A stretch of DNA of 64,000 nucleotides from Pseudomonadota bacterium (GTDB lineage: Bacteria > Pseudomonadota > Alphaproteobacteria > Acetobacterales > Acetobacteraceae), in the NCBI GenBank assembly GCA_021805565.1, contig JAJZFA010000030.1, forward strand, positions 1 to 64,000, written 5' to 3'. Shown one piece after another: positions 3,925-42,981 of the stretch (position 1 is its first letter; every line of letters begins with the position of its first letter). Made by a program: the position numbers and the translations under genes. Under the pieces are notes generated by a model that saw only the letters and a list, made by a program, of their open reading frames with translations, was not told the origin of the DNA and did not search any database.

Positions 3925-4641
3925 GTGCTGTCATTCGACTGCTACGGCACCCTGATCGATTGGGAAAGTGGCTTGTACGATGCCCTGGCGCCGCTTCGGG
4001 TCCGAACCGGCACGGCCCTGTCGCGCGATGCGGTGCTGGAAGCCTTCGCTCGGCTGGAATCCCGCCAGCAGGCGACAACACCCGCCCTGCCTTACCCCGT
4101 CCTGCTGGCCGAGGTGCATGGCCAGCTCGCGACAGAATGGGGCGTGACGCGCGACACGGCCGAAGACGCCGCGTTCGGCGCATCGGTCGGCGACTGGCCG
4201 GCATTCGCCGATACCGTCGAGTCGCTGCGTTACTTGCAGCGCCATTTCCGGCTCGCGATCCTGTCGAACGTGGACCGAACCAGTTTCCGGGCCACGAACC
4301 GGCGCCTGGGCGTCGAATTCGGCACAATCCTAACCGCGCAGGATATCGGCGTCTATAAGCCCGATCCGCGCACCTTTGCCTGTCTGCTGGACCGGATGCG
4401 GCATCAGGGCACACCGAGCGGGAAAATTCTGCACGTCGCGCAGAGCCTGTTTCATGACCATGGTCCGGCGCAGGCGGCCGGTCTGGCCTCTGCCTGGATC
4501 GACCGGCGCCATGCCGTGGGCGGTTCGGGTGCGACGGCGCGGGTGCCTGTGGGTGTACGCTACGATTTCCGGTTCGTCAGCCTGGCCGCGCTGGCGGACG
4601 CCCATCGGGCGGAGGTTCGCCAAGGGGTTGCCCGACAATAA
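3925..4641 (+). CDS. Haloacid dehalogenase type II (HAD-IA)
   Basis: The protein is a type II 2-haloacid dehalogenase-like HAD enzyme. Motif I is SFDCYGTLIDWE, motif II ILSNVD, motif III G-V-Y-K-P-D-P-R, and motif IV lies in HVAQSLFHDHGPAQAAGL. Such enzymes hydrolyse short 2-haloalkanoates, though many relatives have other phosphatase-like substrates. The start is uncertain. GTG 3925 is the first conventional start, but family members begin with about seven more residues (M-K-x-x-D-F-x-V-L), and those are encoded if translation starts at CTG 3904, which overlaps the otsB stop as CTGA. The stop codon lies inside the first hairpin of a dispersed repeat. Confidence 0.85.
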   Translation: MLSFDCYGTLIDWESGLYDALAPLRVRTGTALSRDAVLEAFARLESRQQATTPALPYPVLLAEVHGQLATEWGVTRDTAEDAAFGASVGDWPAFADTVESLRYLQRHFRLAILSNVDRTSFRATNRRLGVEFGTILTAQDIGVYKPDPRTFACLLDRMRHQGTPSGKILHVAQSLFHDHGPAQAAGLASAWIDRRHAVGGSGATARVPVGVRYDFRFVSLAALADAHRAEVRQGVARQ

Positions 4642-4737
4642 TCGCTGCGAGCGACAGCGTCGGACAACCCCTAAGCTTATGTTTTGCAAAATAATTTTTC
4701 TGGCGGGCCGGCGCACTTATTGGCCAGATTTGCCTAA
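4623..4737. repeat. Dispersed double-hairpin repeat, copy A
   Basis: This is a copy of a roughly 115-bp element seen several times in the window. Hairpin 1 pairs 4623-4636 with 4659-4672 (14 bp, one mismatch). Hairpin 2 pairs the TCTGGC segment near 4699-4704 with GCCAGA near 4723-4728, and GCAAA with TTTGC outside it. The conserved CCTAAGCTTATGTTTTGCA linker joins them. It lies between convergent genes, and the TAA stop of the dehalogenase gene (4639-4641) falls in the loop of hairpin 1. Confidence 0.8.
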
Positions 4738-5101: not shown

Positions 5102-5312
5102 TATGATCTCCCTCGATCCGGAAATTAGCAACCATCAGTGTGACTACTCTGCGACTTGGGCGCAATGATGGCCGCCCGGCGGCGATGGAGAGCCAGTCCG
5201 CCCGGGGCCGTACGATCGTGCCCGGCAATAGCCGCATGTGGCGATTATTATCGCGCAGTCCCTGAACGCGGTATCGGCGGCAACAACCCGGTTCGGCATG
5301 GATCGCCGAGCA

Positions 5313-10754: not shown

Positions 10755-13127
10755 ATGTCGATCCGCATCAAGATACTCGCCGGTTGTGCGGCCCTGACGC
10801 TGCTCGCCGGCATGCTCGGCGCCTATGCGCAAAGGGCGGAGCGCGATCTGGGTTCATTGGCCTTACGCATCTACGACGATGCCTTCATGGGCGTCAGCTA
10901 TTTGCGGTCGGCCCAGGTCGAGTTCGCCGAACTCGTGCAGGCCACGGCACATGGCGTGCCCGACCCCAAGGTCGCCTCCGAGGTACTGGACGATCTGGCG
11001 GTCGCACGCGAACGCGCGATGTCGCCCGCCGGCCGCGACGCCGCGGACGCACTCGGACGATCGGTCGCGTCGGCGGTTACGCGGCCGGACTCCGCGCCCG
11101 CGGTCCAGGCCGAATTCGAACGAGCCGTCGAGACGTTCGCAGGAGACGGCTTCCGCTACCGGCGCGATGTCGGCGAACTGGTGGCCGAACAGAGCCACAA
11201 GACGTCGCTCGTAATCGGGTTGACGGTGCTGGTTTCGCTGCTTGTTACGGCTTTGCTCACGAAGTCGATATCGCCGCCGATCCGCCGGGCGGTTCGGATC
11301 GCGCAGTCGATCGCCGCCGGCCATACCGATAACGAAATTATCGTCCGCGGCCGGGGCGAAACCGCGGAACTGCTGCGCGCGCTGTCGGTCATGCAGGCGA
11401 GTATCGCCGCCGCGCTGGCGCGCATCAATGCCCTGATGCAGCAGCAGGCGGCCAGCCATGCCGGCGAACTCGCCCGTCAGCACGTCCGGCTGGAAGCGGC
11501 GCTCGATAATATGAACCAGGGCCTGTGCCTGTTCGCCGCCGACGGCAGTCTGGCGGTCAGCAACCGCCGGTTCGCCGAAATGTTCGGCACCCCCCGGCTG
11601 GGCGCGTCGGTGGAAACGGTCTTGCACGACGCGGGCCTGGATTTATTACAGGACAACGCGCGCGATGCCGGCATGGCAACCCTGACGTGCGAACTGACGG
11701 ACGGCCGAGCAATCGCGGTGTCGCAGCAGACGGTCGCCAGCGGGGGATGGGTCGCAACATATGAGGATATCTCCGAGCGGCGGGCCACTGAAGAGCGCCT
11801 CGCCTATCTGGCGCGCCACGACGGACTGACCGGATTGCCGAACCGCCTGCTGTTCAGCGAACATCTCGCCGGCTGCCTGGCGCGGGCACGCCGCGGCGAC
11901 GGAATGGCCCTTCTGTCCCTGGATCTGGATCGATTCAAAACCGTTAACGATACGCTCGGCCATGCGGCCGGCGACGATCTTTTGTGTGCGGTAACGAAAC
12001 GCCTGCGGGATTGCATGCGGGAAACCGATATGGTCGTGCGGTTTGGCGGCGATGAATTCGTTATCGTTCAGGAAAAAACTCATCAGCCCACCGAGGCGAC
12101 AGCCCTGGCGCAGCGACTTGTGGACATTATGGCGGTGCCGTTCGACATCGAAAATCAACCGGTCGAGATCGGTGTCAGCATCGGCATCGCGCTGTGCATG
12201 GACGGTATCGAGACAGGCGATTCCCTGCTGAAGCGTGCCGATCTCGCGCTGTACCGGGCAAAGAGCGAAGGCCGGGGGCGCTTCCGGTTTTTCGAACGGG
12301 AAATGGATGAGGCCATGCAAACCAGGCGGGCGCTGGAGCTCGACCTGCGCCGCGCCCTGGCCGAGAATCAGTTCGAGGTCTTCTATCAGCCGCTGATGCA
12401 TACGGGCGGTATCGCCGGATTCGAGGCGCTGCTGCGCTGGCGGCATCCCGCGCGAGGCCTGGTCGGCCCGGCCGATTTCATTCCGCTGGCGGAGGAGATC
12501 GGGTTGATTGGTGCCATCGGTGCCTGGGTTCTCGACCGGGCCTGCGCCGACGCAAGGTCGTGGCCAGGCAGCCTGAAGGTCGCGGTCAATCTGTCGCCGG
12601 TGCAATTTCAGACGCGGTCCCTGGCCGAGGATGTAACGCACGCATTGTCCGCATCCGGGCTGGATCCATGCAGACTGGAACTGGAGATTACAGAATCGGT
12701 GCTGATTCAGGATGGCGACGCCGCCCTGAATACCCTGCATACCCTGCGCGCGCTGGGGATCAGGATCGCAATGGACGATTTCGGCACCGGGTATTCGTCG
12801 CTGAGTTACCTGCGCCGGTTTCCGTTCGATAAAATCAAGATCGATCAGTCGTTCGTCAAGGGCATTTGCGAACAGGACGATTGCCTGACGATCGTGCGCG
12901 CGGTGATCGGCCTCGGGCGTTCGCTTGGAATGTCGGTCAACGCGGAAGGGGTTGAAACGGCGGAGCAGCTCGGTCTTTTACGGTCGGAGGGTTGCGGCGA
13001 AATTCAGGGGTATTTGTTCAGCAAACCCATGCCGGGCAGCTGCGTGACCGCCATGCTGTCGATGCATGGCAACGCGACCCTTCAGTCCAGCGTCGTTGCC
13101 GTGCGGGAAGCCGTTCCGGTCGCCTGA
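10755..13127 (+). CDS. Membrane GGDEF/EAL cyclic-di-GMP enzyme with HAMP and PAS domains
   Basis: The 790-aa protein has an N-terminal membrane helix, a periplasmic helical sensor (about 30-150), a second membrane helix (about 153-172), HAMP, a PAS segment (about 245-345), a GGDEF domain and an EAL domain. The GGDEF motif is intact (RFGGDEFV), with an RETD inhibitory I-site just upstream. The EAL domain keeps F-E-A-L-L-R-W, N-L-S-P, E-I-T-E-S, D-D-F-G-T-G-Y-S-S and K-I-D-Q-S-F, so both activities may be present. It would make and degrade c-di-GMP at the inner membrane in response to a periplasmic signal, plausibly supplied by the upstream haemoglobin and cupredoxin. Confidence 0.92.
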   Translation: MSIRIKILAGCAALTLLAGMLGAYAQRAERDLGSLALRIYDDAFMGVSYLRSAQVEFAELVQATAHGVPDPKVASEVLDDLAVARERAMSPAGRDAADALGRSVASAVTRPDSAPAVQAEFERAVETFAGDGFRYRRDVGELVAEQSHKTSLVIGLTVLVSLLVTALLTKSISPPIRRAVRIAQSIAAGHTDNEIIVRGRGETAELLRALSVMQASIAAALARINALMQQQAASHAGELARQHVRLEAALDNMNQGLCLFAADGSLAVSNRRFAEMFGTPRLGASVETVLHDAGLDLLQDNARDAGMATLTCELTDGRAIAVSQQTVASGGWVATYEDISERRATEERLAYLARHDGLTGLPNRLLFSEHLAGCLARARRGDGMALLSLDLDRFKTVNDTLGHAAGDDLLCAVTKRLRDCMRETDMVVRFGGDEFVIVQEKTHQPTEATALAQRLVDIMAVPFDIENQPVEIGVSIGIALCMDGIETGDSLLKRADLALYRAKSEGRGRFRFFEREMDEAMQTRRALELDLRRALAENQFEVFYQPLMHTGGIAGFEALLRWRHPARGLVGPADFIPLAEEIGLIGAIGAWVLDRACADARSWPGSLKVAVNLSPVQFQTRSLAEDVTHALSASGLDPCRLELEITESVLIQDGDAALNTLHTLRALGIRIAMDDFGTGYSSLSYLRRFPFDKIKIDQSFVKGICEQDDCLTIVRAVIGLGRSLGMSVNAEGVETAEQLGLLRSEGCGEIQGYLFSKPMPGSCVTAMLSMHGNATLQSSVVAVREAVPVA

Positions 13128-13138
13128 CATGCGATCCG

Positions 13139-13424
13139 GCCAATGGTCGGCTTTATCGGCGAGCCCACGCACTGATGGCCGATGCCGCCTTTAGGCCATG
13201 CCCGACGATTATCGCGTCGGCTTGCGGCGTCGAGCATGGCCTAAATCTTTGTTTGTGCGGGCAGCTTTATCGGCGTGCTAACGCACTTATGGCCGATGCC
13301 GCCTTTAGGCCATGCCCGACGATTATCGCGTCGGCTTGCGGCGTCGAGCATGGCCTAAATCTTTGTTTGTGCGGGCAGCTTTATCGGCGTGCTAACGCAC
13401 TTATGGCCGATGCCGCCCCTGGGC
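13139..13424. repeat. 114-bp tandem array of the double-hairpin repeat (copy B)
   Basis: The array holds a partial unit (hairpin 2 only) followed by two full units with an exact 114-bp period: the GATGCCGCC landmark recurs at 13181, 13295 and 13409. Hairpin 1 of the first full unit pairs 13190-13207 with 13228-13245 (18 bp, one mismatch). Hairpin 2 pairs ATCGGC with GCCGAT. The array fills the whole gap between two convergent genes. Its right end runs into the stop codon of the ABC ATPase gene. Confidence 0.9.
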
Positions 13425-14738
13425 CTATTCGATATCTTCCAGGCTGAACTGTTCCGCCTCTTCATCGTAACTGAACACCTCGGCATACCGGCCCCAGGCA
13501 ATCACGGTTCGCAGGGTGTCTTCGGCATAGTCCGGCGACATGTGGTCTTCCAGTTCGTCGCGGAACCGCACCGCCGACGCCCGGTGGTTCCATCGTTCGT
13601 CCAGCACCTGCCGGATCATCGTCACCAGCGGCACGTGCAGGCGCAACGCCGCGGCGAAGATCGCCTTGCGCTCATCGGTGTCGGCGCCGACGAACCGGTG
13701 TCCCTGTTCGGTCAGCAGAATATCGCCTTCCTCCAGCAGCGCGAACCGCAGCAGTTGCAACGTCTCGCCCAACGGCAAAAGATCATCGACCTCATACTGC
13801 AAAGACCCCGCCAGAGCCGGCAAATCCGCGCGTCCATCGTATGGTTCGGCCGCCAGCGTCTCCATCAGCCCGGACATGATATTGGTTCCCACGCGGGGCA
13901 GCGGCGTAGCCAACGGCGAAACCGGAGCAGTCGCCGCGGTCTTTGGCCCCACCGGTGCCCGTCGCGTCATGATTCCGTAAATGTCGTCCACCAACTGGCG
14001 GAAATCCGGATCCAACCGGTTTCGCGGATGCGGAAACGGCACCGTCAGCTCGTTCGCCACCCGCCCTGGATTGGACTGGAACACCAGGATGCGGTCGCAC
14101 ATCAGCACCGCTTCCTCGATGTTATGGGTCACCATCAGCACCGATTTCACCGGCAGTTTGCCGTCCACCCACAGGTCGATCAGATCGGTGCGCAATGTTT
14201 CGGCGGTCAGCACGTCGAGCGCGCTGAACGGTTCGTCCATCAGCAGCAGATCGGGATACACCACCAGCGCCCGGGCCAGACCGACACGCTGGCGCATGCC
14301 ACCGGATAGTTCCTTGGGGTAGGCGTTTTCGAATCCGCCAAGCCCGATCATGTCGATTGCCGCCTCCGACAGCGCCTCCCGTTTCGCACGTGGTACCCCG
14401 CGCGCTTCCAGGCCGATCTCGACATTCTCCTGCACTGTCAGCCAGGGGAACAGTGCGAAGCTTTGGAACACCATCGCAACGCCTTCGGTCGGCCCAGCGA
14501 TTTGGTTGCCGCGCCACCTAACGCTGCCGGCGGTCGGTTTCAGCAGTCCGGAAACGATCCGCAGAAGCGTAGATTTTCCGGATCCGGAACGACCGAGCAG
14601 GGCGACGATTTCGCCTTCGCGGAGGGTGAGGTTGACGTCGTCCAGCACGACCAGATCGGCGCTGGCATCCTTGTGATAGGCCTGCCGGCAGGCTTTGACC
14701 TCGATCAGGCAGGGGCGAAGACCGGCCAGTGCATCCAT
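13425..14738 (-). CDS. Nitrate/sulfonate/taurine-type ABC transporter ATP-binding protein with C-terminal AAA-associated domain
   Basis: The 437-aa protein has an ABC ATPase domain (about 10-250): Walker A GRSGSGKST, signature LSGGMRQRVGLARAL, Walker B L-L-L-M-D-E-P, and an H-loop in M-V-T-H-N. A linker and an extra C-terminal domain of about 120 residues of the AAA-associated type follow, as in a subgroup of NitT/TauT family transporters. The start is ATG 14738, with a GAGGAG site upstream and 11 bp after the permease stop. With the fused permease it makes an importer for an anion (nitrate, sulfonate or similar). No binding protein gene lies nearby, so the substrate is open. Confidence 0.88.
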   Translation of the reverse strand: MDALAGLRPCLIEVKACRQAYHKDASADLVVLDDVNLTLREGEIVALLGRSGSGKSTLLRIVSGLLKPTAGSVRWRGNQIAGPTEGVAMVFQSFALFPWLTVQENVEIGLEARGVPRAKREALSEAAIDMIGLGGFENAYPKELSGGMRQRVGLARALVVYPDLLLMDEPFSALDVLTAETLRTDLIDLWVDGKLPVKSVLMVTHNIEEAVLMCDRILVFQSNPGRVANELTVPFPHPRNRLDPDFRQLVDDIYGIMTRRAPVGPKTAATAPVSPLATPLPRVGTNIMSGLMETLAAEPYDGRADLPALAGSLQYEVDDLLPLGETLQLLRFALLEEGDILLTEQGHRFVGADTDERKAIFAAALRLHVPLVTMIRQVLDERWNHRASAVRFRDELEDHMSPDYAEDTLRTVIAWGRYAEVFSYDEEAEQFSLEDIE

Positions 14739-14749
14739 GACGGTTCTCC

Positions 14750-16477
14750 TCAGCCCAGGGTCAGGCGCCGCTGCGCATAGGCGTACATGGGGCGCCACAG
14801 CAAGCGATTGAACAGCACGACGAACGCCGACATCGTCACTACGCCCAGAACCACGCGGGACATGTCGCCCTTGTCGGTCGCGTCGGCGATATAGGCGCCC
14901 AGCCCATGGGCCTGTAGTTTCGTGTCGCCCCAGGATGCCACTTCCGCCACGATCGCCGCGTTCCACGATCCGCCGGACGCGGTGATAGCGCCGGTGACGT
15001 AATAGGGGAAAATTCCTGGGATCATCACCTTGCGCCACCACAGCCAGCCGCCGATGCGGAAGTTACTGGCCACTTCCTTCAGATCGCCCGGAAATGCGGC
15101 GGCGCCGGCCACCACGTTGAACAGGATGTACCACTGCGTACCCAACACCATCAGCGGGGTCAGCCAGATATCCGGACTCAGACTGAAATGGACGATGAAC
15201 AATACGAATGGCGGAAACAGCAGATTGGCCGGAAACGCGGCCAGAAACTGGGCGACCGGCTGCGCCCGCCGCGCCCATTCCGGGCGAAGTCCCAGCCAAA
15301 CGCCGATCGGCACCCAGATCAGGCTGGCGACGATCATCAATACGACGACGCGCAACAGGGTTATCAGGCCCAGACCGGTGGCTGTTTCCACGTCGGCCCA
15401 GTCGAGGGACTGCGACGCGAACAGCACGACGCGCCAGACCGCGGCCGCCATCGTCAGCGCCAGCAGCGCGATCCAGGCGATATCCACCGTTCGGGATGGT
15501 TCTGGCGCGGTCGCGGATCGCGGGCGCCTGCCAAACGACAGGCGCAGGCCGCCGATGAACGACGTTGCGTCGCCAACCCGTTCGCCGGCGAATTTCAGCA
15601 GCCGTGTCCGCCGCATCAGCCGCAGCATCCAGGGATCGGACGCTGTCGCGCCGGCCGTTGTTTCGAACCGGAATTTCGCCGACCACGCGACCAGCGGCCG
15701 GAACAGCAACTGATCGTAGGCCAGGATGACCGCCAGCATGGCCAGGATCGCCCAGCCGACCGCGATAAGGTCTTTTTTCGCCAGCGCCAGTGCCACATAC
15801 GATCCGATGCCAGGCAGCGTCCATGTGTTGTCGCCGACGGATACCGCTTCCGACGCCACCACGAAGAACCAGCCGCCGGACATGGACATCATCGTATTCC
15901 AGACCAGACCGGGCGTGGCGAACGGGACTTCCAGCTTCCAGAACCGCTGCCACGCTGTCAGGTGGAAACTGGCCGAGGCCTCGGCCAGGTCGGCCGGCAC
16001 GGTTTTCAGGGACTGATACAGGCTGAACGCCATGTTCCACGCCTGGCTGGTGAAGATCGCGAAGATGGCGGCCAGTTCCAGTCCCAGCACCTGACCGGGA
16101 AACAGGCTCATGAAGAAGACGACGGTAAAGGTCAGAAACCCCAGGATCGGCACCGATTGCAACACATCCAGCACCGGCACCAGCACCAGGGCCGCCCGGC
16201 GGCTTTTGGCGGCGGCGGTGCCATAGGTGAAGGTAAACAGCAGCGACGCCGCCAGCGCCGCGAACATCCGTAACGTGGTACGAACCGCATAAGCGGGCAG
16301 GTTCAGCGGATCGAGCGTGATCTGTGTCGCCCCGGGCGCATCGATCCGGGTCAGCGTCCCCCGAGCGACGTGGCCGACGGCGACCAGGGCGCCGATGACG
16401 CACAGAAATGCCGCCGCATCCCACAGATTGGGCAGGCGCCAACCGGCGGCCATCGAGGGGTATCGGGTGGCTGACAT
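14750..16477 (-). CDS. Fused double ABC transporter permease (NitT/TauT type)
   Basis: The 575-aa protein contains two binding-protein-dependent permease domains in one chain, each with about five to six membrane helices and an EAA-type loop (E-A-S-A-S-F-H-L-T-A-W-Q-R-F-W and E-V-A-S-N-F-R-I-G-G-W-L-W-W). A hydrophilic linker (about residues 275-330) joins the halves. Most relatives are single-domain proteins of about 270 aa that work as dimers; the duplication-fusion is known in a subgroup that pairs with AAA-associated ATPases, as here. It is the first gene of the two-gene operon. Confidence 0.87.
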   Translation of the reverse strand: MSATRYPSMAAGWRLPNLWDAAAFLCVIGALVAVGHVARGTLTRIDAPGATQITLDPLNLPAYAVRTTLRMFAALAASLLFTFTYGTAAAKSRRAALVLVPVLDVLQSVPILGFLTFTVVFFMSLFPGQVLGLELAAIFAIFTSQAWNMAFSLYQSLKTVPADLAEASASFHLTAWQRFWKLEVPFATPGLVWNTMMSMSGGWFFVVASEAVSVGDNTWTLPGIGSYVALALAKKDLIAVGWAILAMLAVILAYDQLLFRPLVAWSAKFRFETTAGATASDPWMLRLMRRTRLLKFAGERVGDATSFIGGLRLSFGRRPRSATAPEPSRTVDIAWIALLALTMAAAVWRVVLFASQSLDWADVETATGLGLITLLRVVVLMIVASLIWVPIGVWLGLRPEWARRAQPVAQFLAAFPANLLFPPFVLFIVHFSLSPDIWLTPLMVLGTQWYILFNVVAGAAAFPGDLKEVASNFRIGGWLWWRKVMIPGIFPYYVTGAITASGGSWNAAIVAEVASWGDTKLQAHGLGAYIADATDKGDMSRVVLGVVTMSAFVVLFNRLLWRPMYAYAQRRLTLG

Positions 16478-16593
16478 GTCGCTGATGCGCAGAATTCCGG
16501 CGGGTGTGAACAGTGCGCCCTGTTAGCCCGCGATGCCTGCCCTGTCACGCATCAATGGCATTGCCGTTGTGTGACATCGCCAGGGCCGGCAAG

Positions 16594-16638
16594 CCCTTAT
16601 CTCATGTGTTGCGCGGCAACTTTGCCAGCGTTGCCTCA
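16594..16638. repeat. Internally deleted double-hairpin repeat (copy E)
   Basis: This is a shortened relative of the dispersed repeat. The linker (CCCTTATCTCATGTGTTGCG) and the outer arms of hairpin 2 remain (GGCAAC 16615-16620 pairs with GTTGCC 16630-16635), but hairpin 1 and the inner part of hairpin 2 are missing. Its last bases provide the stop codon of uvrB (TCA at 16636-16638, TGA on the minus strand). Confidence 0.6.
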
Positions 16639-18825
16639 CGGCCCCTTGCGGCGCTTTGTCCCGCCGCGCCGTTTCGACGGATCGTAACCGCCGCCGCCCG
16701 GCCCCATCGGCTCTGGCGCCTGTCCCCGCTTCTGGCGCGATAGTGCGGTGGCGGCCGGGGGGGCGGGCAGGCCCAGATCCAGCGCTTCCAGCCGCTTGAT
16801 TTCGTCGCGAAATCGGGCAGCCTGTTCGAATTCGAGGTTCGAGGCGGCGGCCCGCATGCGCTTTTCCATGTCGGCGATCGCCGCTTTCAGATCCTTGCCG
16901 ACAAATTCCGCGGCATTTGTATCTTTAACCGGTGCAACGGTGACGTAATCCTGTTCATAGACGCTTTGCAGCACGTTGCCGATTTGCCGCCGGATCGACA
17001 TCGGGGTGATGCCGTTCGCCTCGTTCCAGCTTCGCTGTTTGTTGCGGCGGCGGTCTGTCTCTTCGATCGCGGCGCGCAGCGATCGTGTCATGGTATCGGC
17101 GTACAGCACCACCCGCCCATCGACATTTCTCGCCGCCCGGCCGATCGTTTGTATCAGCGAGGTTTGCGATCGCAGGAATCCTTCCTTGTCGGCATCCAAA
17201 ATCGCGACCAGCGCGCATTCCGGAATATCGAGACCTTCCCGTAACAGATTGATGCCGATCAACACGTCGAACACGCCCAGGCGCAGATCGCGGATGATTT
17301 CGATCCGTTCCAGCGTGTCGATATCGGAGTGGAGGTAGCGCACCTTCACCCCCTGTTCGGTCAGATAGTCGGTCAGTTCCTCCGCCATGCGCTTGGTCAG
17401 CGTGGTGACCAGCACGCGCCCGCCGGCGGCGGCCACCGCCTTGCACTCGTGCAGCAGATCGTCCACCTGGTGTTCCACCGAACGCACGTCGGTCACCGGA
17501 TCGATCAGACCGGTCGGCCGGATCACCTGTTCGGCGAACACGCCGCCGGTGCGCTCCATCTCCCACGGCCCGGGGGTGGCCGAAACGAATACCGTCAGCG
17601 GGCGAAAACGCTCCCACTCCTCGAATTTCAGCGGCCGGTTATCGACGCAGGACGGCAGTCGGAAGCCGAATTCGGACAGGACGGACTTGCGATTGAAGTC
17701 GCCCTTGTACATGCCGCCAATCTGCGGCACCGTCACATGGCTTTCATCGACGATCAGCAGGGCGTTCTCCGGCAGATATTCGAACAAGGTCGGCGGCGGA
17801 TCGCCGGGTTCGCGGCCGGTCAGATAGCGGGAGTAATTCTCGATCCCGGCGCAGGACCCGGTCGTCTCCATCATTTCGATGTCGAACATCGTCCGCTGTT
17901 CCAGGCGCTGGACTTCCAGCAACTTGCCCTGGGCGGTCAGTTCCGCCAGCCGGTCTTTCAGTTCTATCTTGATATCGCGCACCGCCTGGGCCAGCGTCGG
18001 ACGGGGCGTCACATAGTGGCTGTTCGCATAGACCGTGACTTCGTTCAGCGCGGCGGTCTTTTCGCCGGTCAGCGGATCGAACTCGTGCACCGATTCGATC
18101 TCGTCGCCGAACAGCACGATCCGCCAGGCGCGATCTTCGTAGTGGCTGGGGAAGATATCGACGATATCGCCGCGCAACCGGAACGAACCGCGCGCGAACG
18201 CCATGTCGTTGCGGCGATACTGCAAATCGGCCAGTGCCTTCGCCAGCCTGTCGCGATCGATCTTGCCACCCACCTCCAGCTTCGCCACCATCTTGGAATA
18301 GGTTTCCACCGAACCGATACCGAAAATGCAGGAAACCGAGGCCACCACGATGACATCGTTGCGTTCCAGCAGGGCCTGAGTGGCCGCATGCCGCATCCGA
18401 TCGATCTGCTCGTTGATCTGGGCGTCTTTTTCAATGTAGGTGTCGGTGCGCGGAACATAGGCTTCCGGCTGATAATAATCGTAATAGCTAACGAAATACT
18501 CCACCGCATTATCGGGAAAGAAGCTCTTCATCTCGCCGTAAAGCTGCGCCGCGAGGGTCTTGTTCGGCGCCAGCACCAGCGTTGGCTTCTGCACCGCCTC
18601 GATCACCCTGGCGATGGTGAAGGTCTTCCCGGATCCGGTTACCCCCAGCAGAACCTGATCGCGCTCCGCGGCCTGCACGCCGCGGACGAGTTCGGCAATC
18701 GCGGCCGGCTGATCGCCCGCTGGCTGGTATTCGGACACGCTTGTCAGCCGCCGCGTCATCGGCCGGGCGGCCTGTTTTTGCGGCATGAACAAAACAGGCG
18801 GCGGCCGGACAACGGTGTGGGACAT
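16636..18825 (-). CDS. uvrB: Excinuclease ABC subunit UvrB
   Basis: The 729-aa protein is the damage-verification helicase of nucleotide excision repair and works with UvrA and UvrC. Visible features are Walker [11 protein letters not shown], the beta-hairpin [20 protein letters not shown], the D-E-S-H box (L-L-I-V-D-E-S-H), helicase motif V/VI (T-I-G-R-A-A-R) and a C-terminal UVR domain for UvrC contact (about residues 650-685). A basic, Pro/Gly-rich tail follows. The start is ATG 18825, with an AGGAG site upstream. The last codon and stop lie in a repeat remnant, and a strong hairpin sits in the upstream leader. Confidence 0.97.
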
Positions 18826-29534: not shown

Positions 29535-30137
29535 CTATCCCTGTGCCGCGGCGGTTTCGCTGGCCCCGAAAACCGGCACGTCTTCGACACGATCAGACAG
29601 GGCGCCGGCACCTTCGGTCGGCACCGCGACTGCGAAATTCAGCGCGGCGTCGATATCGCCTTCCCAGACTTCGCGCGGCAGTTCGTACAGCAGCTCGATG
29701 CCGTAACCGTTCGGATCGTTGATGTACAGGCTATGGGTCATGCCGTGTTCGACGCGACGGTTGAATTTCACGTTGCGGCTTTGCAGATACTCAAGCTGGC
29801 GCAACCACGAATCACGATCCGGCAGGGTAATAGCGATATGGGCGATCGCCATCGGCATATCGTTCATCGTCCATTCCGCCGGCGGCGCCGGCAAGGCGCG
29901 GTTTTCGACCAGCGCCACGTCGTGATGGTTCATGTTGCCGTCGTGATCGCCGCTGTAGAAGCGCATTTTCGCCGGGTTCGGACGTTGCGGTGTTACTTTC
30001 AATTCGCCGACCTGCTTGAACCCTAGCATCTCGGTCCAGAACCGGTGGGATTCCTCAAGGTCGCGCACATTCAGCACTAAGTGGTTCAGGCCGGTCGGCG
30101 TGACGGGTCCCGGCGCGGTCGATTGGCTTTCAGACAT
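29535..30137 (-). CDS. VOC-family extradiol dioxygenase-like protein
   Basis: The 200-aa protein has two VOC modules (about 15-75 and 95-160). Candidate metal ligands are His in T-G-L-N-H-L-V-L-N-V-R-D, His in I-A-H-I-A-I-T, and Glu in G-Y-G-I-E-L-L-Y-E, the pattern of catechol 2,3-dioxygenase relatives (shorter than the two-domain 290-aa enzymes). ATG 30137 has a strong GGAGGAA site. As first gene of an operon with RidA, a hydratase, a Mo hydroxylase and an aldolase, a ring-cleaving role is attractive but not proven; glyoxalase-like activity is the alternative. Confidence 0.8.
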   Translation of the reverse strand: MSESQSTAPGPVTPTGLNHLVLNVRDLEESHRFWTEMLGFKQVGELKVTPQRPNPAKMRFYSGDHDGNMNHHDVALVENRALPAPPAEWTMNDMPMAIAHIAITLPDRDSWLRQLEYLQSRNVKFNRRVEHGMTHSLYINDPNGYGIELLYELPREVWEGDIDAALNFAVAVPTEGAGALSDRVEDVPVFGASETAAAQG

Positions 30138-30282
30138 GTCTTCCTCCAGGTTTGGTTATGTTGGCGGCAGGCGATCGGACGATACCGCTTTTACTTATCT
30201 CATTTACCGAAGCGGCCGGCAAACCGGCCAAGGGCGGCGGTTCCAAAAAGCTGTCGCGTGGCCGGCATCGAGGCGTTGTTCC

Positions 30283-30400
30283 TTAGGCCATGCCCAACAA
30301 TTATCGCTTCGGATTGCAGTGTCGGGCATGCCCTAAGCTTATGTTTTGCACGGCAACTTTGCTGGCGTGCTGACGCACTTATTTGCCAGCGTTGCCTTAG
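30283..30400. repeat. Dispersed double-hairpin repeat, copy C
   Basis: Hairpin 1 pairs 30283-30299 with 30320-30336 (17 bp, two mismatches). After the linker CCCTAAGCTTATGTTTTGCA, hairpin 2 pairs GGCAAC (30352-30357) with GTTGCC (30391-30396) and GCTGGC (30361-30366) with GCCAGC (30385-30390). It lies in the 685-bp gap between the catabolic operon and msrB, which otherwise holds only a short Fis-type HTH frame. Confidence 0.85.
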
Positions 30401-30554
30401 TCGCGCTTGTGAATTCGCACGGCGGTTTATCCATGACAAGCAAACATTGTGCCAATCCGTCGGCGATCGTTGACAACCGCCATGCCAACGGGTTGCGGTA
30501 TCGCGCTGGAGTCTGCTCCGGTGGCCGGCGAATGGCCCAGGACATGCCTTCGTA

Positions 30555-30701
30555 ATGCCGGACCCAGCCCGGACGGGTTCGCTCGCGGACATCGAACGCA
30601 CAGTGTGCCAAACGGCGCTACTGGCGTGCGGGGGCAATGTCGCGCGGGCCGCGCGGCACCTTGGCATGACCCGGCCAACCCTGGAGTACCGGCTGAAATA
30701 A
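30555..30701 (+). CDS. Orphan Fis-type helix-turn-helix (48 aa), probable remnant
   Basis: A 48-codon frame encodes L-A-D-I-E-R-T-V-C-Q-T-A-L-L-A-C-G-G-N-V-A-R-A-A-R-H-L-G followed by M-T-R-P-T-L-E-Y-R-L-K. This is the C-terminal DNA-binding helix-turn-helix of NtrC-type sigma-54 activators (Fis/HTH_8). No AAA+ domain precedes it in frame, so it is either a decayed activator gene or a free-standing small Fis-like protein. No clear ribosome-binding site is seen. It lies between repeat copy C and msrB. Confidence 0.5.
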   Translation: MPDPARTGSLADIERTVCQTALLACGGNVARAARHLGMTRPTLEYRLK

Positions 30702-30822
30702 GCGGGGATGGTTCGCCGCGACGGGGGGCGAACCTGAAACGCGCCCGTTGGCCGCGGCCGGTTTCGCACGCTGCCCGTCTGCGCTAAGGGACCGCATGAC
30801 ACTATAAATGCGGGGCACGCCC

Positions 30823-31266
30823 ATGAAACGCCTGTTCGGCGGAAACGATAGCGCACCGGAATCCTTTCCCGTTAGCCTGGGCGAAGACGAATGGCGCCGG
30901 CGTCTGGATTCAGCTCGGTTTCAGGTTTTGCGCCAGCATGGCACCGAACGGCCGAACACCAGCCCGCTGAACACCGAAAAGCGGCACGGGACCTACCGAT
31001 GCGCCGGCTGCGATCGGGCGCTTTTTGCATCCGGTACGAAGTTCGAGAGCGGTACCGGCTGGCCGAGCTTCAGTGCGCCCTTGGATGGGGGGATTGGAAC
31101 GGCGGCGGATCGCAGCCTGTTCATGACGCGAACCGAGGTGCATTGCGCGGGGTGCGGCGGGCATCTGGGCCATGTCTTTCCGGACGGCCCGCGCCCCACG
31201 GGGTTGCGCTATTGCATGAACGGCGTGGCGATGACCTTTCAGCCCGAACCGGCGGACGATCGATAG
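30823..31266 (+). CDS. msrB: Peptide-methionine (R)-S-oxide reductase (first of two)
   Basis: The protein reduces methionine-R-sulfoxide in proteins. Hallmarks are the zinc motifs C-A-G-C and CAGCGG, F-E-S-G-T-G-W-P-S-F, R-T-E-V-H-C, H-L-G-H-V-F-x-D-G-P, and the catalytic Cys in R-Y-C-M-N-G. I chose ATG 30823; an in-frame ATG at 30808 overlaps a TATAAA sequence that may be the -10 box. It has a second paralogue at 43102. It is monocistronic, followed by a hairpin with a T run. Confidence 0.92.
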   Translation: MKRLFGGNDSAPESFPVSLGEDEWRRRLDSARFQVLRQHGTERPNTSPLNTEKRHGTYRCAGCDRALFASGTKFESGTGWPSFSAPLDGGIGTAADRSLFMTRTEVHCAGCGGHLGHVFPDGPRPTGLRYCMNGVAMTFQPEPADDR

Positions 31267-31324
31267 GCCACCGCGTGCCGGCGCTTCGGTGGCGGGCGCA
31301 GGCCGCGGCTGGATGCATGTAATC

Positions 31325-31346
31325 GGGCGTTGACGCCCGGACTTTT
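31325..31346 (+). terminator. Candidate terminator after msrB (overlaps a candidate promoter)
   Basis: The stem GGGCG - TTGA - CGCCC is followed by GGAC and five T, fitting a short intrinsic terminator for msrB. The same bases include TTGACG (31330-31335), which with TAACGT (31354-31359, 18-bp spacer) could be a promoter for the downstream esterase gene. Both readings are weak. Confidence 0.4.
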
Positions 31347-31387
31347 TGTAGCCTAACGTATCTCAAAATTCGGTGGGGTTAATGCAA

Positions 31388-32392
31388 ATGAGGCGTATTC
31401 GTTCGCTCGCGGTTGCCGCCAGCGCGTTGTGGTTCGGTCTTCCGCCTGTCGCCGCGCATGCATACTCAACACTGTATGTCTTCGGAGACAGCTTGTCCGA
31501 TGTCGGTAACATCTATGCCGCGACGCACGGCTTGGAGCCGGGGGCGCCTTATGCCAACGGACAGTTTTCTAATGGACCGGTCTGGGCGCAGGATCTGTCC
31601 CACAGCCTCGGCCTTGGTGCGTTATCGGCCTCGCTTCTCGGCGGCACCGATTATGCGTTCGGGGGTGCGACAACCGGCTATGCGGGAACCACGACCTCGG
31701 GTTCGTCGATTCCAACCGTATCGCAGCAGGTCGGTGGGTTTCTGGCCGCTCACGGTTCGGTGGCGCCGTCGTCCGCACTGTACTCGATCTGGATCGGATC
31801 GAACGATATTTTCAACATTATCACGGGCGGCGTGACGGGCACGGCCGCGGTAATTGACGCGCAAGGTGCAGCGCAGGCCGAGGCAACCGCGATTAAAAGT
31901 CTTGCCGCCGCCGGGGCGAAGGATTTCCTGGTGCCGCTGGTCACCAACCTTGGGAAAACACCCACGCTCACCTCGGTGAGCCTCGCCGCTTCCGCGGCGG
32001 GAACGGCACTTTCACAGGCTTACGACGCCGCGTTGGTGGCCGATCTGGCGGCGCTGGCATCGACGCCCGGCATCGCCTTGTCGTATCTGGATACGTTCAG
32101 CCTGCTGGATAGCGCGATCGCCACCCCGGCGGCCTACGGCCTGAAGAACGTTATCAATCCATGCTATACTGGTCCTTATACCGGCGTTGGTGGAACTGTG
32201 TGCGCCACGCCGAATAGTTATTTGTTCTGGGACCAGCTTCATCCCACGGCCACCGGGCAAGCGATTATCGCCACCGCCGCGTTCGATACGGTACCAGAAC
32301 CGGCGGCGATCGCCATCCTTGCATCCGGCCTTGCCGGCATGGCCGCACTGCGCTTTCGCCCACGGGCGGCCAGACATAACGGGCCTCGATAA
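31388..32392 (+). CDS. Secreted SGNH/GDSL esterase with PEP-CTERM anchor
   Basis: The 334-aa protein has a signal peptide (cleavage near A-H-A-Y), then an SGNH hydrolase domain: block I V-F-G-D-S-L-S-D with the catalytic Ser, block III I-G-S-N-D-I-F, and block V D-Q-L-H-P with catalytic Asp and His. The C-terminus is a PEP-CTERM sorting signal: V-P-E-P, a hydrophobic helix, and R-F-R-P-R-A-A-R. Such proteins are processed by an exosortase (EpsH/XrtA type) and exported to the envelope or biofilm matrix; no exosortase gene is in the window. ATG 31388 has a GGGG site 9 bp upstream. Confidence 0.88.
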   Translation: MRRIRSLAVAASALWFGLPPVAAHAYSTLYVFGDSLSDVGNIYAATHGLEPGAPYANGQFSNGPVWAQDLSHSLGLGALSASLLGGTDYAFGGATTGYAGTTTSGSSIPTVSQQVGGFLAAHGSVAPSSALYSIWIGSNDIFNIITGGVTGTAAVIDAQGAAQAEATAIKSLAAAGAKDFLVPLVTNLGKTPTLTSVSLAASAAGTALSQAYDAALVADLAALASTPGIALSYLDTFSLLDSAIATPAAYGLKNVINPCYTGPYTGVGGTVCATPNSYLFWDQLHPTATGQAIIATAAFDTVPEPAAIAILASGLAGMAALRFRPRAARHNGPR

Positions 32393-32515
32393 GTCCTGCC
32401 GCTGACATCCGAGCGCGCTTAGGGGGGGTCTAAACAAGGCCCGTCGGGCGCACGATACGTGAGCCTTTTCAATCGGCACACCCAGCGCCGCGATCCGCGC
32501 GATCCCGCAATAGAT

Positions 32516-32555
32516 CCGGTCCTGACCGGCGCACAACGCGGCCAGTCAGGACCGG
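32516..32555. terminator. Bidirectional terminator-like hairpin between convergent genes
   Basis: A 15-bp stem with one mismatch (32516-32530 with 32541-32555, loop of 10) lies between the converging ends of the SGNH esterase and the Mo hydroxylase gene. No T run follows, so termination by this hairpin is inferred from position. The rest of the 172-bp gap shows nothing else. Confidence 0.45.
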
Positions 32556-32564
32556 GACGATGCC

Positions 32565-34883
32565 CTATCGAAGGGCCGCCCAAACCACGGCCGGGGTCAG
32601 CGGCATCTGGATGCGGTCGGCCTCACCGGCGTGACCAGCCCGAGCGAGGGCATCGGCGACGGCGTTGACGACGGCCGGGGTGGCACCGATCGTCCCGAGT
32701 TCGCCCACGCCTTTCACACCCAGGGGATTGGTCAGGCACGGTACGGTCGTATCGAGAATATGCACGAACTCGCCGATGATATTGGCGCGCGGGATGAAGT
32801 AATCCATCATGCTCGCGGTGACCGGCTGGCCCGAACCGTGTTCATACATCATGTGTTCGCCCAGCGCCTGCCCGATTCCCTGCACCGCACCGCCATCCAA
32901 CTGCCCGCGCACGATCATCGGATTGACCACCCGCCCGACATCGTTTGCCGACACGTAAGAAACGATCTCCACCGCGCCGGTATCCGGATCGACCTCGACT
33001 TCCGCGATGTGCGTTCCGTTCGGCCAGGTGGGGCCGTTCACCGAACTGGACATATCGACATAAATCCGGCGATCCGGCTGCCGCGCGGCCAGGTCGAACA
33101 GTCCGATCCCGCGATCGGTGCCGGCGATGCGGAATTCGCCTTCCGCGTATTCGATATCCGCCGCCGCCGCTTCCAGAACCTCGGCCGCCAGATCGCGCCC
33201 GTTCGCAACGGCCTTTTCCGACGCGACATGAACAGCCGACCCGGCGGTGAACAGCGACCGCGATCCGGCGCTGCCAAATCCGGCCCCCAAATCGGTGTCG
33301 CCGGTGACGATGCGAACGCGATCGAGTTCCACCCCGAACACATCGACAACCAACTGCGCATAGGACGTAGCGATCCCCTGCCCCATGCCCATGGTTGACG
33401 CATAGACCTCAATGGCCCCGTCGCCCGAAACCGACACGGTTACCCGTTCCTCGAACACATTGCCGCCGGTCCATTCCAGGAACGACGCCAGGCCACGCCC
33501 CCGCAGCATCCCGCGGGTCGCCGATTGCGCCGCCCGGCCGGCGAAATCGTCCCACTTCCCAAGCGCCAGCGCCTGCTCCAGGATCGAGCCGAATTTCCCG
33601 CTGTCGTACACTTGCCCCATCGCATTGGTGTAGGGCATCTGCTCCGGCTGGATCAGGTTGCGGCGGCGGATTTCCGCCGGGTCCAGCGAAAGCTGGCGCG
33701 CCGCGGCGTCGAACAGGCGTTCGATGATGTAGATCGCCTCGGGCCGTCCGGCCCCGCGATACGCGGCGGTGGGGGCGGTATGGGTCAGCACCGCCTGAAA
33801 ATCGAAATCGATGGTGCGAATATCGTAGATGCTGGTCGAAACCCACGGTCCGATCAGCAACTGAATGATGATCCCGGTGGTGCTGCCATAGGCGCCGACA
33901 TTGGCGAGCGATCGCACCCGGTAGGCCAGAACCTTACCGGCCGCATCCAGCGCCAGTTCGGCGTGGGATTCCACATCCCGGCCATGCGTCGCCGACAGAA
34001 ATTCCTCGATCCGGGCGGGTACCCATTTGACCGGCCGACCGATCTGCCGGGCGGCGTATGCGACAACGATCTCCTCGGGGTAAATGCCGGTCTTCATGCC
34101 GAACCCGCCGCCGACATCGCCGACCACGACGCGCACGCTCCCGGCCGGCAAACTCAGTGCCTCGCACAGCGAATCGCGGGCCCCGGACGGCATCTGGGTG
34201 GACAAGCGAAATGTCAGGCGTTCGGTGGCCGCGTCGTAATCGGCCAGACAGCAGCGCGGTTCCATCGAGGCTGGGGACAGGCGCTGATTGACCAGATCGA
34301 GCGAAACCACATGCGCGGCCGAGGCGAACGCGGCATCCGACGCCGCCGCATCGCCGTGCTTCATCTGCGCGGCGATGTTGCCCGTCGCGGCCGGCCATAC
34401 CAGCGGCGCGCCGGCTGCGGTCGCCTGTGCCAGTTCGGTCACCACCGGCAGTTCGTCATACTCCACCGCCACCGCTTCCAGCGCGTCCTTGGCCTGTTCG
34501 GCGGTCTCGGCGACCAGCGCGACTACGCCCTCACCCACGAAGCGCACGATTTCGTGTGCGAGTGCCGGACGCAGCGGCGACGCCCCCGGCGAACCGTCGG
34601 GGCGGGTGAACATCGGTGCCAGCGGCAACGGCTTTATCCCTGCCGCGGCCAGATCGGCACCGGTCAGCACCGCCACCACACCCGGCATGGCCGCCGCCGC
34701 CGAAACATCGATCGAGACGATCCGGGCATGCGCGTGCGGCGACCGCAAGAACACCATGCAGGTCTGTCCCGGCAGCGAGAAATCGTCGGTGTAATGTCCG
34801 GCACCCGCCAACAGGCCCGCATCCTCGATGCGCCGCACGTCGCGCCCGCTGCCGAAGCGCCCGATCGTTGTAACGTCGTTCAT
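32565..34883 (-). CDS. Second molybdenum hydroxylase large subunit, orphan
   Basis: The 772-aa protein is another xanthine dehydrogenase-family molybdopterin subunit: F-L-R-S-P-H-A-H-A-R-I, G-D-V-G-G-G-F-G-M-K, A-Y-R-G-A-G-R-P-E-A, and the catalytic Glu in G-V-K-G-V-G-E-L-G. It shares the layout of the 25950-28298 enzyme but is clearly divergent. No small or FAD subunit gene and no other catabolic gene lies beside it, so it must borrow partners encoded elsewhere or be an isolated remnant. The open reading frame is intact. Substrate unknown; N-heterocycles, aldehydes or aromatic thioesters are all possible for the family. Confidence 0.9.
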   Translation of the reverse strand: MNDVTTIGRFGSGRDVRRIEDAGLLAGAGHYTDDFSLPGQTCMVFLRSPHAHARIVSIDVSAAAAMPGVVAVLTGADLAAAGIKPLPLAPMFTRPDGSPGASPLRPALAHEIVRFVGEGVVALVAETAEQAKDALEAVAVEYDELPVVTELAQATAAGAPLVWPAATGNIAAQMKHGDAAASDAAFASAAHVVSLDLVNQRLSPASMEPRCCLADYDAATERLTFRLSTQMPSGARDSLCEALSLPAGSVRVVVGDVGGGFGMKTGIYPEEIVVAYAARQIGRPVKWVPARIEEFLSATHGRDVESHAELALDAAGKVLAYRVRSLANVGAYGSTTGIIIQLLIGPWVSTSIYDIRTIDFDFQAVLTHTAPTAAYRGAGRPEAIYIIERLFDAAARQLSLDPAEIRRRNLIQPEQMPYTNAMGQVYDSGKFGSILEQALALGKWDDFAGRAAQSATRGMLRGRGLASFLEWTGGNVFEERVTVSVSGDGAIEVYASTMGMGQGIATSYAQLVVDVFGVELDRVRIVTGDTDLGAGFGSAGSRSLFTAGSAVHVASEKAVANGRDLAAEVLEAAAADIEYAEGEFRIAGTDRGIGLFDLAARQPDRRIYVDMSSSVNGPTWPNGTHIAEVEVDPDTGAVEIVSYVSANDVGRVVNPMIVRGQLDGGAVQGIGQALGEHMMYEHGSGQPVTASMMDYFIPRANIIGEFVHILDTTVPCLTNPLGVKGVGELGTIGATPAVVNAVADALARAGHAGEADRIQMPLTPAVVWAALR

Positions 34884-34970
34884 TCACTCTCTCTGCGACT
34901 AGGGTTTACGGCGATATGGGGACGCTCGCCAGGGTTGCCATGGCCTGGACGCTCAAACGATGGATAGCGG

Positions 34971-35090
34971 CTAAGCGATTGCCCGACAACAATCGCTTCG
35001 CGCGGCAGCGTCGGGCAATCCCTAAGCTGAATGTTTTGCACGGCAACTTTGCTGGCGGGCTGACGCACTTATTCGCCAGCGTTGCCTAAA
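34971..35090. repeat. Dispersed double-hairpin repeat, copy D (best-formed)
   Basis: Hairpin 1 has a perfect 11-bp stem (34977-34987 with 35010-35020). Hairpin 2 has two perfect arms: GGCAAC (35042-35047) with GTTGCC (35081-35086) and GCTGGCG (35051-35057) with CGCCAGC (35074-35080). The end of hairpin 2 runs into the SDR gene and the bases CTA at 35086-35088 form its TAG stop codon. Confidence 0.88.
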
Positions 35091-35826
35091 CCCGCTGGCC
35101 ACCATCAATGTGAACTTCCGATCCGGTGATATACAGCGCCTGATTGGAACACAAAAAGAATAACAGATCCGCGACCTCGTTCGGCTTGCCCAGCCGCCGC
35201 ATCGGAATTTCCCGCTGCACGATTTCTTCCGTGCCGGGCGACAGGATCGCGGTGTCGATCTCCCCCGGCGACACCGCGTTCACCCGCACGCCATGCCGCC
35301 CCAGGTCGTTGGCCATTTCCCGCGTCAGCGCCGCCAGCCCGGCCTTGGAGGTCGCATAGGCTGCGCTGGCGAACGGATGCACCCGCGATCCGACGATCGA
35401 GGTCATGTTGACGATGCTGCCCTTCGATTCGATCAGATAGTCGCTCAATCCCTGCGCCAGCAGGATGGCGGAGAAGAAATTGACGTTGAAAATCGCCAGC
35501 CAGTCCTTGTAGGCCATTTCCAGGCTGGTGATCTTGCTGCCATCGGCATGCTTGGGGGACACGGCGGCATTGTTGATCAGCGCATCCAGCCGTCCGCCGG
35601 CGATGCGCTTGATCTCTGGCAACGCGTCCCGCACGGTATCGACGTTCGCCAGATCGAGTTGAATGTGGTTGCGCTCCCCGCCCGGCCACGGGCAGCGCGG
35701 GTCGAACGCCTGGCGGGAGATCGTCAGAACCCGCCATCCCTCGCTGCTGAACCGCTTGACGGTCGCATGGCCGATGCCACGGCTGGCACCGGTCAGCAGC
35801 AGAACACGTTCCTGGGTGGCGGACAT
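35086..35826 (-). CDS. Short-chain dehydrogenase/reductase
   Basis: The 246-aa protein is a classical SDR: nucleotide-binding L-T-G-A-S-R-G-I-G-H near residue 15, N-N-A-A at about 95, catalytic Ser in N-M-T-S-I-V-G-S, Tyr-Lys in A-A-Y-A-T-S-K-A-G, and a closing I-D-G-G-Q-R-V. It would oxidise or reduce a hydroxyl/keto group with NAD(P). ATG 35826 has an AAGGATCC site upstream. The gene is divergent from a glyoxalase-like gene and its stop codon lies in repeat copy D. Substrate unknown. Confidence 0.9.
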   Translation of the reverse strand: MSATQERVLLLTGASRGIGHATVKRFSSEGWRVLTISRQAFDPRCPWPGGERNHIQLDLANVDTVRDALPEIKRIAGGRLDALINNAAVSPKHADGSKITSLEMAYKDWLAIFNVNFFSAILLAQGLSDYLIESKGSIVNMTSIVGSRVHPFASAAYATSKAGLAALTREMANDLGRHGVRVNAVSPGEIDTAILSPGTEEIVQREIPMRRLGKPNEVADLLFFLCSNQALYITGSEVHIDGGQRV

Positions 35827-42302: not shown

Positions 42303-42932
42303 ATGCGCGCGACCGGACGCGGTGGGCCGATCGGCCGCGGCTTTGTCGAAGAACAGGCCACGATCGAACCCGCGCCGCCGGAACCGGCACTGGACATGGC
42401 GGCTCGGACCGGCGTGCTGCTGTACGACGCCACCGTGGCCGTCGATACGATCATGGCCGAGGCCGTGCGCTCCATTCAGGCTGGCGGCATCCAGGTCGGC
42501 GGCTTGCTGCAACACGCCGGCCCACGCCACGCGAACGGACGACCCAGTCTTTGGCTGGGCGATATCGCCACCGGACAGAGCATCCGGCTGGACCAGCCCC
42601 GCGGAACCGGGGCCAGGGATTGTATTCTGGACCCCGATGCGTTGGCCCAGGGTGCCTGTCTGTTGCGCGCCGCCGCCGGGGCTGGGTTCGGCCTGATCGT
42701 GGTGAACCGGTTCGGGTATGCCGAGGCGGAAGGCGGCGGGTTGCGGGCGGAAATCGCGGAGGCGATGTGTTCCGGTGCGGCGCTGCTGATCGCGGTGCGG
42801 CTGTCCCGGCTGGCCAGCCTGGAGGCGTTTCTGGGCGGCCCGGCGACGGTGCTGCCCGCGGCCGCCACGGCCATCGCCGCCTGGGCCGCACAGGCGGTGG
42901 GCCAATCCGGAATTGCCCCAGGCTACGCCTGA
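42303..42932 (+). CDS. DUF2478-family protein
   Basis: The 209-aa protein matches DUF2478, a family often found near molybdenum uptake or cofactor genes. Visible signatures are V-D-T-I-M-A-E-A, I-Q-A-G-G-I-Q-V-G-G-L-L-Q, I-L-D-P-D-A-L-A-Q-G-A-C-L-L-R, and L-I-V-V-N-R-F-G-Y-A-E-A-E-G-G-G-L-R-A-E, which looks like a degenerate P-loop-type NTPase core. The first 30 residues are less typical; ATG 42396 is an alternative start. It sits 1 bp after an LLM gene. A role in Mo metabolism would fit the three Mo hydroxylases here, but that is inference. Confidence 0.78.
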   Translation: MRATGRGGPIGRGFVEEQATIEPAPPEPALDMAARTGVLLYDATVAVDTIMAEAVRSIQAGGIQVGGLLQHAGPRHANGRPSLWLGDIATGQSIRLDQPRGTGARDCILDPDALAQGACLLRAAAGAGFGLIVVNRFGYAEAEGGGLRAEIAEAMCSGAALLIAVRLSRLASLEAFLGGPATVLPAAATAIAAWAAQAVGQSGIAPGYA

Positions 42933-42939
42933 AAATCGG

Positions 42940-42981
42940 CGTTAAGGGCAGCATTGGCAAATAGCGCTGCTGCCCTTAACG
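42940..42981. repeat. Short perfect hairpin, deleted relative of the dispersed repeat (copy F, inverted)
   Basis: A 13-bp perfect stem (42940-42952 with 42969-42981, loop of 16) starts 8 bp after the DUF2478 stop. Read on the minus strand, its TATTTGCCAATGCTGCCCTTAA part resembles the 3' arm of hairpin 2 in copy C (TATTTGCCAGCGTTGCCTTAG). It may also act as a terminator-like hairpin; no T run follows. Confidence 0.5.

Follow-up and report, generated by a model that had tools for sequence, protein, structure and literature searches.

The nearest layout known to us for the repeat family analysed here is that of the rhizobial RIME1, the Rhizobium-specific intergenic mosaic element reportedly described by Osteras in 1995, which is said to be about 108 bp long, to contain two large palindromes and to be intergenic. 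The likeness extends to length, two-palindrome layout, intergenic position and alphaproteobacterial host. RIMEs are named in passages of PMC2573895 and PMC2245857. Bacterial MITEs, as presented in the portions of PMC3733652 and PMC10969869 that concern them, share with the family a length of ~110 bp, non-coding character, multiple and mostly intergenic copies, direct duplications and folding; they differ in that each end of the family described here is a covarying hairpin of its own, with a conserved linker, and in that its parent insertion sequence (IS) was not found. Typical MITEs carry terminal inverted repeats of 15–30 bp, whereas those seen here are weak (8/21 to 13/22). REP, BIME and REPIN elements with their RAYT transposases (PMC3733652; see also PMC3116915 and PMC2817692) likewise have hairpins, tandem or composite arrays and positions at gene 3′ ends, but the present family has no GTAG or CGTC tag and does have 3-bp duplications, and no RAYT was found in its own genome. 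The double palindromic TIR families of TIRYT genes are also two-palindrome repeats and sit beside a transposase group; according to the section of PMC3733652 that treats them, these TIRs go with Y1-type genes, whereas the one Y1 gene found in this genome is of the IS200 type. Br-REP1 of Bradyrhizobium, another multi-palindrome repeat between convergent genes of an alphaproteobacterium, differs in having three palindromes and another consensus, with no duplication mentioned in the relevant part of PMC5082802. A three-nucleotide insertion site is given as a common feature of the IS1031 group in a passage of PMC2516522. This group of the IS5 family (excerpts of PMC2516522 and PMC3196728) resembles the present family in that site, and an IS5-family copy in a related genome (L321) has TTA/TTA flanks; IS5-family elements differ in being autonomous and in having other terminal sequences (GTGTCTGAC in L321).

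The family was encountered in a 64-kb window (the whole 64,000-nucleotide stretch of DNA that was analysed), where the first-pass annotation had placed full copies at four sites, each in the order hairpin 1, linker, hairpin 2. This layout was borne out in three single copies and a tandem pair, and five full copies were found at the four places, all on the plus strand. The copy at 34971-35090 holds a 112-bp element (34975-35086) of hairpin 1, linker and hairpin 2, with target duplications TAA at 34972-34974 and TAA at 35087-35089. The copy at 30282-30400 holds 111 bp at 30286-30396 with a TTA/TTA duplication, and a copy on contig C19 of the same genome matches it perfectly for 118 bp. At 4620-4737 the element proper (4624-4734) has CAA at its 5′ side and TAA at its 3′ side; the CAA is probably a decayed TAA and, with the frame computed from coordinates, is in frame with ORF 3925-4641, which lies upstream and now runs into the element, ending at 4641 within hairpin 1. 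The remaining place, 13139-13424, consists of a fragment and two tandem copies of a divergent subfamily (C), in which a plus-strand hairpin-2 fragment (13139-13188; local score 60 against a shuffle maximum of 21) precedes full elements at 13189-13303 and 13304-13417, the pair lying between convergent ORFs 10755-13127 and 13425-15041.

Two shortened relatives had also been proposed, and they fared differently. The one near 16594-16638 is a true remnant with plus-strand bounds 16582-16635, composed of linker and hairpin 2 with the loop deleted (27 bits with nhmmer; a local score of 41, with shuffles reaching 23 at most), and the TCA directly after it supplies the minus-strand TGA with which ORF 16636-18825 stops. 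The other, 42940-42981, was rejected as a family member on aligning no better than shuffles (best score 16 against shuffle maxima of 20–26; no nhmmer match at E ≤ 0.01). This segment is a strong hairpin (GTTAAGGGCAGC...GCTGCCCTTAAC) past an ORF ending at 42932, with no detectable kinship to the family. A possible, weak hairpin-1 remnant lies on the minus strand at 5219-5267 (17 bits; local score 23 against a shuffle maximum of 22). The linker as first written out proved exact in two places of the window, where shuffles predict 0.01 occurrences, and had no other match there within three mismatches; the copy at 34971-35090 carries a linker with a one-base insertion, and that of the subfamily at 13190 reads CCTAAATCTTTGTTTGTGC.

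Confinement to the window would have spoken against a dispersed family, but copies also occur outside it; they are spread through the genome and recur in relatives. The own genome comprises 4.49 Mb in 64 contigs, and blastn located the element there in at least 48 places, among the 40 of 114 candidates that were scored, and patterns for the element's ends matched 53 + 53 times (106) against 2 + 0 for a reversed control. A profile search run over fetched stretches of this genome returned 99 matches at E ≤ 0.01, some of them the palindrome read in reverse. Merging the matches at ≥60 bits left at least 71, on 39 contigs, the remainder being weak or reverse palindrome readings, and these copy counts are lower bounds for the stretches covered. 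Nearly the whole model is spanned by 59 of the 71, the other 12 being either incomplete copies or additional hairpin-2 units in tandem arrays. Arrays with two or three repeats of a 63-bp unit occur in the own genome at L144 (contig C16), L145 (C60), L146 (C56) and L147 (C3), the unit being linker plus hairpin 2 with junctions at CTAAG.

How did the copies come to lie where they do? The flanks are mostly CTNAG on either side, with TNA as the 3-bp duplication. Both ends were readable in 54 of the 71 own matches, with the 3′ trinucleotide placed so as to end in A and with tandem copies sharing sites, and 41 of the 54 had equal trinucleotides on both sides (permutation mean 22.7, maximum 34 in 20,000). 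In a sister metagenome-assembled genome (MAG), 338R_metabat_61, the trinucleotides were equal in 25 of 26 copies (permutations averaged 12.0 and never exceeded 22). These copies were picked by exact outermost bases plus 8 nt of flanking sequence, a choice that favours intact ones, and over 111 bp 22 of them were identical. The duplication is present and the burst is recent in this sister species. The site of the copy at 34971-35090 offers a further comparison, since G010 and G014, two congeners, have a single CTAAAC adjoining the conserved gene end in the orthologous region where the own genome has TAA-element-TAA. The right side of this alignment is well conserved and the left poorly, over only about ten bases, and at this one site examined the two relatives probably carry the empty site. 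By eye, a third relative, G025, has a different hairpin element at the gene end where this copy inserted (L304, G025:C80:106950-107450).

Set against the features by which MITEs are recognised, the family is short at 111–112 bp (70–300 bp is usual), non-coding and dispersed in many copies (71 matches), and it has a target site duplication (41/54 own copies, 25/26 in the sister MAG). We therefore consider it probable that this is a family of ~111-bp non-autonomous, MITE-like DNA transposons moved in trans by a DDE-type transposase, most likely of the IS5 family. Among the options first listed, the MITE is favoured by the duplications, the probable empty site and the burst in the sister species, a REP/BIME element moved by a RAYT is disfavoured, and the conserved RNA fares in between, with hairpins that covary and no Rfam match.

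Under a REP/BIME or REPIN origin, a Y1 (RAYT) tyrosine transposase would mobilise both hairpins by way of single-stranded DNA. That each unit has two hairpins and lies between genes, that hairpin 2 occurs in tandem arrays and that the own genome has a Y1_Tnp gene all fit this reading. That gene, however, the only Y1 transposase gene found there (L032:3851-4480, contig C58), is IS200-type: it scores 137 bits with the IS200 model (cut-off 55) but 45 bits with the REP-transposase model, whose cut-off is 80, and it has no element copies within about 4 kb. The RAYT-type gene that the first-pass annotation had proposed to look for was thus not found in the own genome, and a RAYT origin was rejected for this genome. 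The hairpin feet, moreover, read CTNAGG and CCTNAG, with no GTAG or CGTC tag. Target duplication is not expected of Y1 enzymes, and the equal duplications in 41/54 and 25/26 copies largely refute this rival, which we regard as very improbable. The 3′ part of the Y1 gene overlaps a CCAACCGGCGG hairpin repeat that is also present elsewhere.

For the favoured DDE-type transposase, a parent IS sharing the element's ends would have GGCAACGCYGGCAAATAAG as its last 20 bp. No DDE locus with these ends was found among PF01609 loci (own genome and four relatives), PF13359 loci (eight genomes) or PF13340 loci (nine genomes), many of these loci being truncated where a contig stops. Multi-copy IS are frequently missing from draft assemblies. 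An IS5-family copy in genome G028 (L321:1204-2406; NF033580, 224 bits) has TTA/TTA flanks and GTGTCTGAC ends; among its relatives, L313 has flanks TAA/TCA and L314 is readable on one side only, and other IS5-like copies have TA flanks. As a best guess, the IS5 type is the likeliest class of transposase. A hairpin-bearing repeat lies on either side of the L321 copy in direct orientation, and L321 was rejected as an IS with hairpin ends, the hairpins belonging to that repeat. A 68-bp sequence of the congener G015, tried as the end of a parent IS, proved to be another MITE family. This second family has an inverted repeat of 16/20 starting GGCAACGC and exists in 84-, 122- and 170-bp forms, the 122-bp forms with an internal CGTCATGGCCCGG palindrome; of 20 loci fetched, 13 had both ends matched (L208, L210, L212, L215, L216, L218, L220-L225 and L227), and 12 of these 13 had equal 3-bp flanks (TAA, TTA or AAA).

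The hairpins themselves are conserved as structures. Folds of the copies at 34971 and 30283 and of 13130-13430, three of the four places, were more stable than those of dinucleotide shuffles (z −3.1 to −3.8), and each folded copy formed two separate hairpins joined by the conserved linker CTAAG-N3/4-TGTTTTG. Between subfamilies the stems vary, while the TGTTTT linker and the GCACTTAT segment are largely conserved. In an alignment of 24 copies from six genomes of the genus, 93% of cells were paired, two-sided changes occurred at 11 of 24 pairs, and 63 cells carried two-sided changes against 20 in shuffles; in a cross-genus alignment of 14 copies from six genera, 95% were paired and the corresponding numbers were 38 and 11. 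The covariation score exceeded all 500 shuffles and every slid version in both alignments, with the structure derived from the same genus alignment on which it was scored and hence favoured over the slid versions. Two of the five covariation measures, those counting pairs or pair types, are weak: in the genus alignment the number of pairs with two-sided change was matched by 20 of 500 shuffles and that of pair types by 98 of 500, and in the six-genera alignment 1 of 500 shuffles was as high for changed pairs and 491 of 500 for pair types. Both hairpins are kept by compensatory changes across at least six genera. The linear terminal inverted repeats are weak, at 13/22 for type A and 12/22 for type B in the own genome, 11, 9 and 10 of 22 in three other species and 8/21 in subfamily C (p = 0.15).

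Compensatory changes within a plain MITE require a further reason. One such reason would be a transposase that recognises the folded hairpins (cruciform or single-stranded) in place of a linear inverted repeat and still duplicates its target on insertion. Were this so, selection on foldable ends would explain why hairpins were kept in at least six genera while the linear inverted repeats drifted; we hold it to be unlikely. A different reason would be a conserved functional RNA or 3′-end module (a terminator, an mRNA stabiliser or a barrier between convergent genes) that spread by transposition in the past and is retained today because of its hairpins. The compensatory changes in both hairpins, a bias towards convergent gene ends and a linker conserved between genera all speak for such a module, but Rfam 15 gave no match at gathering thresholds on the 64 kb and none at E ≤ 1 on 30200-35200, and a terminator scan of 30100-35300 found no site inside the two copies it covered. 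The patchy distribution (22/299 genomes) and the recent burst in one species also argue against it, and the covariation could also come from a transposase needing folded ends. For these reasons we judge an RNA module to be distinctly unlikely.

Placement relative to genes was scored with a crude GC3-based gene caller, at slightly looser cut-offs than those of the window calls, for the 29 own copies flanked on both sides by 500 nt or more. The 25 that could be classified comprised 12 between convergent, 11 between tandem and 2 between divergent neighbours; of the other 4, 3 were called inside a gene, among them the window copy at 4620-4737, and 1 was unresolved. Neighbouring gene pairs in the window are convergent in 8 of 47 cases, and the copies differ from this background at P = 3e-4. 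There is, in short, a bias towards convergent gene ends. Each of TAA, TTA, TGA and TCA is a stop codon on one strand. Among the 52 own copies that could be tested, 19 have an insertion site overlapped by the stop codon of an ORF of 100 or more codons, as do 3 of the 28 other CTWAG sites (p = 0.018). Pooling with the sister MAG gives 29 of 80 copies against 11 of 71 control sites (p = 0.005); because the sister MAG by itself is not significant (10/28 against 8/43, p = 0.16), much of the excess may reflect how frequent the target motif is. The mapping to gene ends advised at the outset has thus found convergent ends favoured and sites often on stop codons.

Of 98 genomes searched with blastn, 6 had the element, all from one genus and the own among them, which leaves 5 of 32 congeners; one of these, G016, had a single 61-bp match alone, and another congener, G007, has a divergent member that blastn missed. 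A pattern scan of GTDB r220, which may omit the window's own or very near records, matched a single MAG, Acetobacteraceae 338R_metabat_61, in 31 stretches, and this MAG is taken to be G028 because the copies have flanks in common. The search of Acetobacteraceae with a covariance model, as first recommended, used a model built from 24 copies from six genomes of the genus and scored up to 12 candidates per genome under strict filters. Among the 299 genomes of the bacterial family it matched at least 22, counting the own genome, spread over 16 of the 102 genera: 8 exceeded 100 bits (six genera), 1 reached 69 bits at a contig end and 13 lay at 36–50 bits. Several of these weak relatives occur in multiple copies and are mostly shorter, with the form CTAGAGC...GCTCTAGCTNTTTGTTTTGNCGAGCAACTTTATC...GTTGCTCTAG; judged by layout and linker, the weak relatives appear to be akin to the family, and with them counted the two-hairpin layout recurs in up to 16 genera. 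Viral contigs held no exact match to the pattern of the element's 3′ end, and blastn against plasmids with a relative's element and with the copy at 30283 gave no match. In 338R_metabat_61 another double-hairpin family, TTAGACCATGATCG... GCTCTAG, is present (L087, L095, L100, L108, L109, L113 and L115) and adjoins the element's 3′ end at a common TTAG, as if the element had inserted several times into the terminal CTTAG of that family.

Could the family be a subfamily of the rhizobial RIME1-type mosaic elements, of the same lineage? The layout is alike, and an unannotated double palindrome of Sinorhizobium pSymB (L270:2779-2896) starts with CCTTAG and ends with CTCTAG. That unit has a different linker, however, and across 350 kb of pSymB neither the covariance model (E ≤ 1) nor the linker pattern gave a match. 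Common descent with RIME1 seems very improbable. The earlier statement that no named family has this layout holds within the scope searched: neither Rfam nor the literature, of which coverage was partial with subscription journals mostly outside it, yielded anything recognisable as this repeat, RIME1 being compared by its layout and through the 350 kb of pSymB. The family is apparently undescribed.

We hypothesize that the non-autonomous, MITE-like family behaves as follows. Each element end would fold alone into a hairpin, with the conserved linker joining both, and a DDE-type transposase acting in trans, most likely of the IS5 family, would insert the element at CTNAG and duplicate the 3 bp TNA. 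Because the element starts with G and ends with C, CTNAG is restored on both sides of the insert; an insertion at a stop codon would therefore leave the gene product unchanged, and for this reason copies would survive at gene ends, especially between convergent genes. Hairpins between convergent genes would end up in mRNA 3′ ends. We infer the class of transposase and the movement in trans, and likewise any effect on transcripts.

The finding contributes a repeat family, to all appearances undescribed, that occurs across several genera of a single bacterial family, and the recent burst in one species makes its mechanism testable. It joins two questions that are usually separate, namely how hairpin repeats are mobilised and why they accumulate at the ends of genes, and a CTNAG target that rebuilds the stop codon would be a simple reason for tolerated insertions at gene ends. 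If the transposase should indeed recognise folded hairpins, the family would represent a class of transposon between DDE MITEs and hairpin-recognised REPINs. As it stands, it is a testable example of a transposon with ends kept foldable.
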